A DNA stretch of 64,000 bases. Source: Sediminibacterium sp. KACHI17. Its GTDB lineage: Bacteria; Bacteroidota; Bacteroidia; Chitinophagales; Chitinophagaceae. The notes beneath the pieces are model-generated. The model searched no databases. It saw only the letters and a program-made list of their open reading frames with translations, and was not told where the DNA came from. The DNA lies in assembly GCF_040362915.1 (NCBI RefSeq), contig NZ_AP029612.1:2232001-2296000 (forward strand), given 5' to 3'. The translations under genes and the position numbers were made by a program. Positions within the stretch are counted from its first letter, which is position 1; every line of letters begins with the position of its first letter. Shown here one piece after another: positions 17,701-63,947 of the stretch.

Positions 17701-17798
17701 CTGTTTCAAATTAGAAAAAAACTAATTATTTGTTGATTCTATGCTGATTTTCAAGCTTCATAATAGAACATGAACGTACTTTATAGAAAATTCATTCT

Positions 17799-18734
17799 TT
17801 GTTGTATTTCCTGATCAAACTGCCAATACGACTAGCGCTACACATTTTTTGTGTAAACAAAGAAATCATTCACCCCCAATATTTTCAGGAAAAAGGCCCC
17901 TTGCTGCTGGTGGCCAATCACCCCAACTCTTTCCTCGATGCCATTATCATAGCAGCCCATTTTAAGCACCCGATTCATTTTCTTGCCCGTGGTGATGCTT
18001 TTCGAAAACCATGGCACAATACCCTGCTTCGACTTTTGCATATGATACCGATTTACAGAATCAGCGAGGGTAGAGAAAACCTGCACAAAAATGAAGATGC
18101 ATTTAAAAGATCCGCAGAACTATTACAGCAAAATCAGATCGTATTGATTTTTATAGAAGGCATCTGTTTGAACAAACATCAATTACAACCTTTTAAAAAA
18201 GGAGCTGCGAGAATCGCCTTAGCATTACTAAAAGAACAACGCCCACTGAATATTATGCCAATTACAATTGCATACAACAGCTTTCTTTCTTTCGGTAAAA
18301 ACATTCGCATTCATCTGGCTGCACCCATTTCGGCAGAACAATTATTACCGTATGAGGATGATGCTAAAAACTTTCAATATTTCAATGAAAGAATGTATGA
18401 ACAACTATCCGGTATGATACACGTTCCCGAAGCCTTTCGGCATCAACAACGAATACTACTTGCGCTTCCTGCCATCATTGGATTCTTTTTGCATATACCG
18501 ATCTACACGCTTATAAAAAAACAAATCTATCGGCGAACAAAAGGAACCGTTTTTTTTGATTCAGTGATGTTTGGTGTCTTATTGATTTTATATCCCCTGT
18601 ATCTGATTTTATTAATCGTACTCTTGTCGTTATTCCACCTACCTTTTTCGATCATAGGTCCGGTCATTTTATTGCACCCTTTTTTAGCCTGGTGTGCAGT
18701 TCAATATAAAATAACACGAAACAACAACGTGTAA
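17799..18734 (+). CDS. PlsC-type 1-acylglycerol-3-phosphate acyltransferase family protein (TTG start)
   Basis: A 311-aa membrane-associated acyltransferase. The catalytic histidine box is NHPNSFLD (H-x5-D, the variant seen in many Bacteroidota members), with IFIEGICLNKHQLQPFKKGAA as the FPEG-like acceptor-binding block. Two C-terminal hydrophobic helices are visible (IIGFFLHIPIYTL, FGVLLILYPLYLILLIVLL). It probably acylates lyso-phospholipids at the inner membrane, with acceptor unknown. No ATG exists in frame between the upstream stop (17784) and well inside the domain. TTG 17799 or the adjacent TTG 17802 is therefore the best start. Confidence 0.85.
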   Translation: MLYFLIKLPIRLALHIFCVNKEIIHPQYFQEKGPLLLVANHPNSFLDAIIIAAHFKHPIHFLARGDAFRKPWHNTLLRLLHMIPIYRISEGRENLHKNEDAFKRSAELLQQNQIVLIFIEGICLNKHQLQPFKKGAARIALALLKEQRPLNIMPITIAYNSFLSFGKNIRIHLAAPISAEQLLPYEDDAKNFQYFNERMYEQLSGMIHVPEAFRHQQRILLALPAIIGFFLHIPIYTLIKKQIYRRTKGTVFFDSVMFGVLLILYPLYLILLIVLLSLFHLPFSIIGPVILLHPFLAWCAVQYKITRNNNV

Positions 18735-29180: not shown

Positions 29181-29263
29181 TGCCCGAAAAGAAAAAATTG
29201 AGAATATCTTGTAACATGAATGCAGAAACTGCGATTATATAACAAGACTACAGGCAAACATCT

Positions 29264-29818
29264 TTGGAACCGGCAAAAACAATAACGAGCGAGGAAATTG
29301 TGGAACGGTGTAAAAAGGGCGAAACATCAGCCTTTTCTGCACTCTATCACTTGCATTCCAAAGAAGTGTACAACACGATCTATCGTCTCGTGCCCCATAC
29401 AGGTGAGGCAGAGGATCTTTTACAAGAAGTATTTGTTGCAGCTTTTCAGGCCATTCATCGCTTTGAGAATACGGGTGGATTCAGGGCCTGGATCAAAAGA
29501 ATTGCCATCAACCATTCTATTTCCTGGATCAGGAAACAGAAAGTAAGATGGGTAGAGCTGGAAGATAAAGACAGTTATTTGAAAGAAGAGGAAAGCATCG
29601 ATGAGTCAGAATTTGTGTTCAAGGTAGCAGAAGTGAAAAAAGCGATCGATCAACTTCCGGATTCAAATAGAACCATTGTGCAATTATACCTGTTCGAAAA
29701 TATTCCACAGGAAGAAATCGCACAAATATTGGGGATCTCTTATAATAATGTAAGGATCCAATACCATCGATCAAAACAAAAAATTTTAAAAAGCCTTAAA
29801 GAAGGAGGTGTTGCATGA
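29264..29818 (+). CDS. ECF-type RNA polymerase sigma factor (TTG start)
   Basis: A 184-aa sigma factor. Region 2 shows LYHLHSKEVYNTIYRLVPH, EDLLQEVFVAAFQAI and FRAWIKRIAINHSISWIRKQ. Region 4 shows LPDSNRTIVQLYLFENIPQE and ISYNNVRIQYHRSKQKI. It has no N-terminal anti-sigma or extra domain. No in-frame ATG precedes the domain after the stop at 29240. TTG 29264 gives the usual short N-terminus, with GTG 29300 the alternative. It overlaps the next gene by 4 bases, which fits a sigma/anti-sigma pair. Confidence 0.92.
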   Translation: MEPAKTITSEEIVERCKKGETSAFSALYHLHSKEVYNTIYRLVPHTGEAEDLLQEVFVAAFQAIHRFENTGGFRAWIKRIAINHSISWIRKQKVRWVELEDKDSYLKEEESIDESEFVFKVAEVKKAIDQLPDSNRTIVQLYLFENIPQEEIAQILGISYNNVRIQYHRSKQKILKSLKEGGVA

Positions 29819-55448: not shown

Positions 55449-56708
55449 TTATAGCTGTTTTTGTTTGGCATTAAAATACCAGGCCGCATATACTGTAATT
55501 CCTACGCCTACTACAGATAATATCATCACACTATTTGAAAAGAATTGAACCCAGTTCAATTGTACTTTGAAAATTTCTTTGCTTAATAATACAGTCACAC
55601 TGCCCAGGTATCCGAATGAATCAGCGAGATAGATCAGGAAACCGACATTTCCTGTAAACCGAAATGCAGCGATCATTCTTTCAAAAAATACAGAGTTGAA
55701 AGGTATATATACCATGTAGAGACCCAGTCCCACCAATGTCATCCACCAGATCGGTGCTACAAGTCCTTTGGTAAACAAGTACGTACTCACGCCTGCAACC
55801 ACAAATCCAATCGCAATGAACAAGTGAGCGATCATCAATGCTTTGAAACTATTTTTGATGATGACCATGCTGCCGATGAGTGCAAGAATAACCAGTGTAA
55901 TCGGTGTTTCTGTTTTAGAAAAAATAGCAGGTTGATTTAGATACCCCATTTCCTTCCACATATCAGCACTGAAATTGTCTCTGATATCGCGAAAGATGGT
56001 TGCAAAACCATAAATAAAGATACAGGCAATGATACCGGGTAAGAAAGAGCGAACAAAAGCTTTGCGCTGTTCAGCACTCATGGGTGTTCGGTTCATACGT
56101 GCGGCTTCATCTTCAGCATCTGGTGCAGGTATGCGTTCCATGAGATAGATGAACAATAATAAAGGCAATGCAAACACCAATCCCGTGCAAAAAGGCACCC
56201 AAAATTCTGTGACGCCCAATTGAATCAACCATCCTCCCACCGATTTCACAAAACCTGACGAGAAGATAAAACTCACTGCAAGTGCAGCACCAATAAAATC
56301 AGTACTTCTTCTTCCTTCTACATAAGAGAAAACCACGCCCCATAACATACCCAAGGGAAAACCATTGATGAAAAGAAAGACAATATTATAGGGAGCGGGT
56401 ATCAGCGCAAAACAAAGCCATGCCATCCATGCAATACCCACTAGAAGGAGAATGATCTTATTTCTTCCAAAACGTTTTAATTCGGAAATGAATTTGATAC
56501 CATAAAACTTAGCCATCAGATACCCCATCATCTGACTAAGTACCAACACTGTTTTATAACTCAAAGAACCCACAGTCATTCCATCAAATGTGCAAACGGT
56601 GAATGATTTGCGAAATCCGAATATCATGGTATAGGTAAGAAAAGCTGCAACGGCAGCATAGATTCCTATTTGTATCGGCGAACCTTTGAAAACTGATTTT
56701 GTGTTCAA
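55449..56708 (-). CDS. DUF5690 family membrane protein, MFS-like (TTG start)
   Basis: A 419-aa polytopic protein with about twelve hydrophobic helices (AAVAAFLTYTMIFGFRKSFT, VLVLSQMMGYLMAKFYG, LLLVGIAWMAWLCFALIP and others). It resembles the DUF5690 family, a Major Facilitator-like group. The first expected residues NTKSVFKGSPIQIGIYAAV follow TTG 56708. A TTG at 56738 would add ten residues, and no ATG precedes the first helix. TTG 56708 gives the usual family N-terminus. No substrate is known. Confidence 0.82.
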   Translation of the reverse strand: MNTKSVFKGSPIQIGIYAAVAAFLTYTMIFGFRKSFTVCTFDGMTVGSLSYKTVLVLSQMMGYLMAKFYGIKFISELKRFGRNKIILLLVGIAWMAWLCFALIPAPYNIVFLFINGFPLGMLWGVVFSYVEGRRSTDFIGAALAVSFIFSSGFVKSVGGWLIQLGVTEFWVPFCTGLVFALPLLLFIYLMERIPAPDAEDEAARMNRTPMSAEQRKAFVRSFLPGIIACIFIYGFATIFRDIRDNFSADMWKEMGYLNQPAIFSKTETPITLVILALIGSMVIIKNSFKALMIAHLFIAIGFVVAGVSTYLFTKGLVAPIWWMTLVGLGLYMVYIPFNSVFFERMIAAFRFTGNVGFLIYLADSFGYLGSVTVLLSKEIFKVQLNWVQFFSNSVMILSVVGVGITVYAAWYFNAKQKQL

Positions 56709-56761
56709 GCGTTGGTTGTTTGCAATAAATATAGGCAAACTCCAAACAAAACCTCAGTGCT

Positions 56762-62668: not shown

Positions 62669-62794
62669 TTAACGAACATTGTTGGGACAATTACAGCCCC
62701 CTCTGCCATTCCTTCCTTTTTGGAATATACCACAGGAACTGGCCATCGTGATAAGTAACAGCAGAACGATTATTTGGTTTATTTTGAGTTTCAT
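62669..62794 (-). CDS. Tiny lipoprotein with a C-terminal CNCP motif
   Basis: A 41-aa predicted lipoprotein: the hydrophobic IIVLLLLITMASSC signal ends at the lipid-attachment cysteine, followed by GIFQKGRNGRGGCNCPNNVR. Short Bacteroidota lipoproteins of the form SCGxFxK-CxCP are common, but their role is unknown. The start is ATG 62794; a longer frame reads a non-homologous leader. It lies 11 bases upstream of the 82-aa gene. Confidence 0.65.
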   Translation of the reverse strand: MKLKINQIIVLLLLITMASSCGIFQKGRNGRGGCNCPNNVR

Positions 62795-62864
62795 ATGATG
62801 ATCTAAAGTACACTTTTCAATCATTTCATGAATCAAACCATTCCAGCTGTCTACCGATTTTAAC

Positions 62865-63947
62865 ATACAAAACGTACTGATCGCTCCACTAGACTGGGGC
62901 CTGGGTCATGCAACACGTTGTATTCCATTGATTCGTGCATTGAATCGTGCGGGATACCGTGTATACATTGCTTCCCACGGACCTCAGCAAACCCTTTTAC
63001 AAAAAGAATTTCCGGAGAATACATTCCTTTCACTTCCCGGTTATCAGGTACGTTACAGTCGATCCAAAGGTTGGCTGCCCTTCAAAATAATGCAACAATT
63101 GCCTGCCATACTACGTATTGTTCAATGGGAACACCGCTGGTTAGATAAGGCGATTGAACAATATGGCATCGATCTGGTGATTTCCGACAACCGGTATGGT
63201 TTATGGACGAAAAAATGTCCGACAGTTTTTATTACCCATCAATTACAGATCAAAGCGCCATTTGCATGGCTTGAGCGCCTCATCCAAAAAATACATTATC
63301 GTTTTATTGAACGCTTTAGCGCTTGTTGGGTTCCTGATCAGGAATCAGGAGATGGATTAGCAGGTACACTGTCACATCCGATCAAAAAACCGGCCATACC
63401 TGTGACTTATATTGGATTGCTTTCACGTTTTCAAAAAGGCAATCATTCCAATGAAAAGCAGATCACAGTGCTTTTATCAGGTCCCGAGCCTCAAAGAACC
63501 ATCTTAGAAGAGCAAATCATCGCACAGATATCATCTGTTCAGCAATCGGTATTGTTGGTGAGAGGGCTACCAGCAGCTACAAACAGTATCAAGGTTCCGT
63601 CAACGATCAAGGCAGTGAATCATCTAACAGCAGAAGACATGCAAACAGTATTGCAGAATAGTGCTTTAGTGATAGCACGCAGCGGTTACAGTAGTTTGAT
63701 GGACTTTTCACGATTGCATTGTACTACTATATTAATTCCTACACCCGGACAAACAGAACAAGTTTACTTAGCAAAACGTTGTGCGGAGAAGGGTTATGCG
63801 GTTTATGCGGATCAATCAGATCTTGATTTGATCAATGCAATAACAAAAACAGTTGATCAAAATATTGTCTTTCCTTCTTTCCATTTTTTTGAAGAAGCAG
63901 ACCTGCAAAGATTGATCGCGGCATTACCGATAAAAGCTTCTTCTTAA
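62865..63947 (+). CDS. Glycosyltransferase (GT28-like) with a missing canonical start codon
   Basis: A ~360-aa glycosyltransferase-like protein. The conserved N-terminal block NVLIAPLDWGLGHATRCIPL is translated from 62871 onward, but no ATG, GTG or TTG precedes it in frame after the stop at 62829. The position expected for Met is ATA at 62865; TTG 62928 would remove the whole block. Later motifs are VISDNRYGLWTKKCPTVFI, GLLSRFQKGN, LLSGPEPQRT, NSALVIARSGYSSLMDFSRL and PGQTEQVYLAKRCAEKGYAV, as in GT28/MurG-like or DUF-related glycosyltransferases. It may act on a cell-surface glycan. The start is uncertain and could be ATA, CTG 62877 or a frameshift/sequencing error. Confidence 0.8.
   Translation: MQNVLIAPLDWGLGHATRCIPLIRALNRAGYRVYIASHGPQQTLLQKEFPENTFLSLPGYQVRYSRSKGWLPFKIMQQLPAILRIVQWEHRWLDKAIEQYGIDLVISDNRYGLWTKKCPTVFITHQLQIKAPFAWLERLIQKIHYRFIERFSACWVPDQESGDGLAGTLSHPIKKPAIPVTYIGLLSRFQKGNHSNEKQITVLLSGPEPQRTILEEQIIAQISSVQQSVLLVRGLPAATNSIKVPSTIKAVNHLTAEDMQTVLQNSALVIARSGYSSLMDFSRLHCTTILIPTPGQTEQVYLAKRCAEKGYAVYADQSDLDLINAITKTVDQNIVFPSFHFFEEADLQRLIAALPIKASS

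Follow-up and report, generated by a model that had tools for sequence, protein, structure and literature searches.

In Staphylococcus aureus, cvfC1 starts at AUU and both ccpN and infC start at AUA (PMC13009471), and in Streptomyces the GTC start of sigR is repressed by IF3 (PMC5472188). CUG is an uncommon bacterial start, and in E. coli its initiation complexes are less stable than those formed at AUG, GUG or UUG (PMC11497404). A general study found that selection favours AUG and that AUG-to-UUG switches are selected against (PMC5622118), and in F. johnsoniae initiation is favoured by an A at -3 and the surroundings of starts avoid AUG (PMC6847099). The glycosyltransferase gene of Sediminibacterium sp. 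KACHI17 analysed here would resemble these S. aureus genes in having a near-cognate start that lowers initiation, one that is kept across relatives in cvfC1 and ccpN (PMC13009471), and would have an unusual start codon in common with sigR (PMC5472188). It differs from the S. aureus cases, which have extended Shine-Dalgarno motifs and were studied by ribosome profiling and reporters (PMC13009471), in that the codon would be CUG, in a phylum without Shine-Dalgarno signals, and is supported by the comparison of relatives. The sigR start is under IF3 control (PMC5472188); the glycosyltransferase CTG is exchanged for TTG or GTG in relatives. Among the open-access papers listed, none reported natural initiation at CUG in Bacteroidota, or this gene itself.

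The window, by which we mean the whole stretch of 64,000 nucleotides analysed, lies in a single-contig genome (G000) of 3,136,465 bases that is 99.98% complete. On direct reading, the glycosyltransferase frame opens at 62832, immediately after a TGA at 62829-62831, and runs to a stop ending at 63947, giving 371 codons without a stop. The sequence following the TGA is ATC AAA CCA TTC CAG CTG TCT ACC GAT TTT AAC ATA CAA AAC GTA CTG ATC GCT CCA, where the first CTG occupies 62847-62849 and the ATA 62865-62867. An earlier note on this DNA had stated that the frame holds no ATG, GTG or TTG between the stop at 62829 and the TTG at 62928, and that an ATG at 62828 opens 11 codons ending at the TAA at 62861-62863; both observations were reproduced. 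The block that it described as conserved, NVLIAPLDWGLGHATRCIPL, is indeed so, with P14, W17-H21 and R24 (numbered from the CTG) invariant in a 36-sequence alignment. In the window, a conserved core is thus preceded by no in-frame ATG, GTG or TTG, the pattern of a near-cognate start.

To compare the start region among relatives, the gene was searched for and found in 141 of 147 genomes of the genus and in 59 of 60 relatives drawn in part from other families. The start region was read in 116 distinct loci (L002-L031 and L035-L120), and seven loci from other families that were without the anchor were dropped, leaving 109; the genus is represented by 98 of the 141 genomes with a match, the remaining 43 being mostly lower-scoring matches or fragments. 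These 109 loci comprise clade A (65, window included), clade B (24), group C (9: L013, L014, L081, L083, L085, L088, L090, L091 and L100) and other families (11). Clade B is monophyletic and has an ATG nine codons before the core in all 24 loci; clade A is what is left of the genus after the other groups are set apart, and is not one branch on the tree. The tree itself is of a quick type with many deep forks open; it omits the partial rows L099 and L100 and includes eight of the nine group C loci. The features of the start region are the following:

62847-62849, forward strand: CTG, putative start codon, which would be read as fMet; the aligned column is TTG, CTG or GTG in 61/65 clade A loci, with stops upstream and stop-free sequence downstream.
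62847-63947, forward strand: GT-B fold glycosyltransferase gene, 366 aa and stop; Pfam Glyco_tran_28_C, AlphaFold2 model and Foldseek matches.
62850-62867, forward strand: STDFNI tail at the N-terminus; its [FI]-N-[IM] portion, or a sequence close to it, is found in 48/109 loci.
62835-62837, forward strand: AAA at -12 to -10 of the CTG, a place that is A-rich at the ATG starts of this genome.
62861-62866, forward strand: TAACAT, nearly invariant at the nucleotide level (48/49 clade A loci with the AAC codon).
62828-62863, forward strand: ATG-started 11-codon frame overlapping the start, not common to the nearest relatives.
62669-62794, reverse strand: small lipoprotein-like gene of 41 aa in divergent orientation (MKLKINQIIVLLLLITMASSCGIFQ...); 15 of the 23 loci looked at, window included, have similar reverse frames.

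We conclude from the comparison of relatives that translation of an intact glycosyltransferase gene very probably starts at CTG 62847. The codon lies in a column, the first of the tail before VL[IV]APLDWGLGH, that is occupied in the 65 clade A loci by TTG (53), CTG (6) or GTG (2), so that orthologues place a start at the same position. The CTG loci are the window (L002), L035, L036, L037, L040 and L042. The nearest relatives, L035-L037, have no ATG, GTG or TTG before the core and carry the CTG at the window's position; in L042 the sole other candidate is a GTG within the core (the V of VLVAP), and L040 has in addition a TTG two codons further upstream. Among the remaining clade A loci, L068 has its TTG one codon further out, and L054, L065 and L069 have instead an ATG two to three codons upstream. 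The assignment is less clear in some rows: L006 and L061, counted among the 53 with TTG, also have an in-frame upstream ATG, and L010, L058 and L067 carry ATG at the ATA column. In the 48 tail-bearing loci, Leu in the start column is encoded by TTG (31) or CTG (6) and by no other Leu codon (37/37). TTG and CTG together account for 0.46 of Leu codons across these genes, and all the other conserved Leu columns listed draw on additional codons; limited in this way, the start column behaves as a start codon, unlike an ordinary Leu codon.

The changes seen in this column also fit a start codon. L065 and L069, in which GCG and TCG, respectively, have replaced the TTG, each carry an in-frame ATG three codons upstream, and their sister L006 has both the ATG and the TTG; these three tree neighbours look like steps of one replacement, in which an ATG was gained upstream and the TTG was then lost. 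At least three interchanges between TTG and CTG, in the window's clade, L040 and L042, can be counted by eye on the quick tree, and the window's CTG probably arose from the TTG used by most of the lineage.

Coding appears to set in at this same column. In 61 loci, in-frame stops make up 22 of the 366 codons in the six positions before the NTG, compared with none of the 352 codons from the NTG to the ATA column (p = 4e-7, with shared ancestry ignored; the rows L050, L054, L065 and L069 were omitted from the count). In the six nearest sequences, a 1-base indel is found just upstream of the CTG, and none between the CTG and the core.

The upstream context is consistent with a start at the CTG. 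In the window's genome, the 159 ATG starts common to syntenic relatives have A at frequencies of 0.52, 0.59 and 0.58 at -12 to -10, and CTG 62847 has a context score of +0.6, with a median of 0.8 for the ATG genes. Over 61 loci, the mean score of in-frame codons from -8 to +8 is at its maximum at the NTG (0.39) and is -0.14 six codons past it, at the ATA column of most rows. The measure is blunt, since a one-base shift from the NTG outscores it (0.52 vs 0.39), and two other in-frame codons are likewise preceded by a high frequency of A at -12 to -10 (0.547 and 0.579). We count this bluntness against the CTG, together with the nucleotide constraint on AAC-AT described below, the C at -3, the G at -1, a base that few ATG starts of this genome have at that position (0.07), and the host initiator tRNA, which has the ordinary GGG/CCC anticodon stem pairs. 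An altered initiator tRNA favouring CUG was rejected because the tRNA is ordinary. A sigma-70 promoter scan gave no match, with a consensus that is unsuited to Bacteroidota. The out-of-frame ATG 62828 lies 19 bases 5' of the CTG and is absent from L035-L037, and its frame overlaps the start; provided that the mRNA includes it, this ATG might compete for ribosomes.

If ribosomes do initiate at CTG 62847, the initiator tRNA would read the codon as fMet and the product would be a GT-B glycosyltransferase of 366 residues, in which a short tail, fMet-STDFNIQ, precedes the first Rossmann strand. Bacteroidota lack Shine-Dalgarno signals and CUG is a weak start; because of this, the rate of initiation would be low and little enzyme would be made.

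The protein scores 44.3 bits with Pfam Glyco_tran_28_C (PF04101), for which the cut-off is 22, and so carries a GT28 C-terminal domain; two further glycosyltransferase Pfam models slightly exceed their cut-offs. It has the GT-B fold and Glyco_tran_28_C in common with MurG-like or GT28-like glycosyltransferases and with the MJ1255/VC2487 family; however, it falls far under the cut-offs of both families, with 49.0 vs 195.9 for TIGR00661 (MJ1255/VC2487), to which it is thus not assigned, and 34.8 vs 250.25 for the murG model. An AlphaFold2 model built on the 36-sequence alignment has a mean pLDDT of 91.9, with values below 50 only at residues 1-3 and 364-366, and places beta strand 1 at residues 9-14 counted from the CTG. 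Among the 50 Foldseek matches listed are SpnP, CalG1 and YojK, which we take to be GT-B enzymes, at 10-17% identity. No PDB chain match was found for the single glycosyltransferase sequence, and a profile gave weak matches to MurG- and UGT-type chains in the PDB (best E 5.5e-6). The closest named relatives, at 71-73% protein identity, are MAGs named Chitinophagaceae bacterium, Sphingobacteriales bacterium and Sediminibacterium sp. Gen4.

The earlier note had proposed a rare start codon, either ATA or CTG, and had taken ATA 62865 as the position of the expected Met. The CTG part of this proposal agrees with the start column of the relatives. The ATA part does not, as the relatives place the start six codons upstream and the ATA encodes the Ile of the common tail. 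Translation from ATA 62865, yielding a protein fMet-QNVLIAP, is thus improbable, even though several observations speak for it: AUA starts are documented in S. aureus infC and ccpN (PMC13009471), an A stands at -3 of this codon (a position unmarked for A in this genome, 0.34), and the column holds ATA in 36 of the 48 tail-bearing loci, ATT in 9, ATC in one and a Met codon (ATG) in 2, against a share of 0.24 for ATA in these genes. The codon before it is AAC in 48/48 of these loci, against an AAC share of 0.35 in these genes, and a start at the ATA could in principle explain this constraint on AAC-AT. Such a start leaves unexplained, however, the NTG-only column five to six codons upstream and the absence of stops in between. 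It is also at odds with L012, L084, L086, L096 and L097, which keep the TTG and have no AT-codon at the ATA place, with a context score of -0.85 at ATA 62865, and with the frequency of A at -12 to -10, which is 0.376 before the AAC-AT codon (47 loci) vs 0.644 before the NTG (60 loci).

The earlier note had also suggested a lost start codon or a sequencing error. A reading in which the start codon was lost and the gene is dying, or in which the sequence is wrong at this site, would account for the lack of a canonical start codon and for a CTG that is one base from TTG. We regard it as very unlikely: the 371-codon frame is free of stops in a single-contig, nearly complete genome, and the same CTG is found in the genomes G093, G089 and G095, which are of three other species and so make a sequencing error unlikely, as well as in L040 and L042.

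A further reading, in which translation starts at ATG 62828 and shifts by +1 at TTT-TAA (UUU UAA C) into the glycosyltransferase frame, is hardly credible. The site has what we take to be a shift-prone arrangement, in which the UUUU of the window permits re-pairing, and TAAC stands there in 47/47 loci tested. A programmed +1 shift would be preceded by an upstream frame that is conserved and closes at the site of the shift, whereas the frame that ends at this TAA is closed within 0-2 codons in 19/47 loci and, over the up to 45 codons examined, contains an ATG only in the window and L045 (2/47); ATG 62828 itself is not found in L035-L037. Scarcely conceivable, finally, is a start at TTG 62928 (MIRALN...), which is the first in-frame ATG, GTG or TTG but has the lowest context score of seven candidates (-2.5; ATG 62828 scores -0.38), would delete residues 1-27 with beta strand 1 and the invariant W17-G18-L19-G20-H21 (the GLGH loop), and is suggested as the start of homologues by none of the 109 loci read.

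Within the gene that would start at CTG 62847, the near invariance of TAACAT extends to all 49 clade A loci with the AAC codon except L054, which has TAACAA, although silent variation of these codons is possible; the other 16 clade A loci are without AAC. Another column is equally fixed, the Asp codon being GAT in 48/48 loci, and such columns occur elsewhere in the gene. The element was rejected as a frameshift site, since relatives do not conserve the frame ending at the TAA, and as a strong hairpin, the region 62815-62935 folding no better than shuffles (z = -0.35). Rfam gave a single sub-threshold match (E 0.97). A role of the fixed CAT of AAC-AT as an antisense start codon was rejected by eye, as the reverse frames of a few loci disagreed. 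The element is near the divergent lipoprotein-like gene, whose 41-residue product reads SCGIFQK...CNCP (62669-62794, minus strand), and it may serve either the glycosyltransferase gene or this neighbour.

In group C, a sister lineage, the 75 bases before the core are free of ATG, whatever the frame, and of in-frame GTG, TTG and CTG (9/9 loci). The column aligned with the start is ATC in six loci and ATT in three, and the ATA column is ATA in 9/9. The TTG of a control acyltransferase gene is kept in eight of the nine group C genomes, the ninth (G100) being without an acyltransferase match. With no in-frame NTG at the glycosyltransferase gene and the control TTG kept, the gene probably starts at AUU/AUC or AUA in this lineage. 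Mean context scores are -0.28 for AT[TC] and -0.56 for ATA, and codons that cannot be starts score higher.

To see how unusual the CTG is, 464 kb of the window's genome were compared with a single contig from G093 and another from G104, which gave 196 syntenic orthologue groups. A common ATG was found in 159 of them, GTG or TTG throughout in 13, a mixture with ATG in 2 and no conserved N-terminus in 4; the 18 that were flagged, inspected by eye, proved to be shifted ATGs, doubtful frames, poorly aligned N-termini and the glycosyltransferase gene. The latter is the only gene among the 196 groups seen to need a CTG, under a rule that takes any shared ATG near the N-terminus and so would miss a CTG start if one lay further upstream. 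The host infC gene has an in-frame ATG as candidate start.

Three other genes of the window with no apparent ATG start served as controls, and two of them keep a TTG start. The acyltransferase (near 17802; 17787-18734) has TTG at the aligned place in 30/30 loci by eye, window included, and a sigma factor (near 29264; 29243-29818) in 17/17 loci printed, with 13 loci (L198-L210) left out as probable paralogues. These controls weaken the candidate explanation that the non-AUG start reflects special selection on the glycosyltransferase; conserved TTG starts are common in the genus, so the lack of AUG alone is not special to this gene. In the gene at 55449-56753, TTG, GTG and ATG are mixed, with one CTG, in 30 loci by eye. 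The CTG belongs to the L173 orthologue, whose near relative L172 has TTG; this is a possible second TTG-to-CTG start change.

We regard as doubtful the broader reading in which selection holds the glycosyltransferase of this lineage at near-cognate starts: UUG, CUG or GUG, replaced by AUU/AUC (or AUA) in one sub-lineage, with AUG absent from that column throughout the loci read. Its output would then be low or tied to initiation fidelity, in a phylum without Shine-Dalgarno help and with TAACAT as an extra RNA or DNA element just inside the gene. Most likely, the glycosyltransferase has a CUG start derived from UUG in an intact gene, a sound if modest instance of a type already known. A gene finder limited to ATG, GTG and TTG would lose the invariant GLGH loop from the protein. 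The group C lineage, without an in-frame NTG, offers a natural test of AUU, AUC and AUA starts, and comparison across relatives makes the gene a clear case for natural initiation at CUG in Bacteroidota, which select their starts without Shine-Dalgarno pairing.
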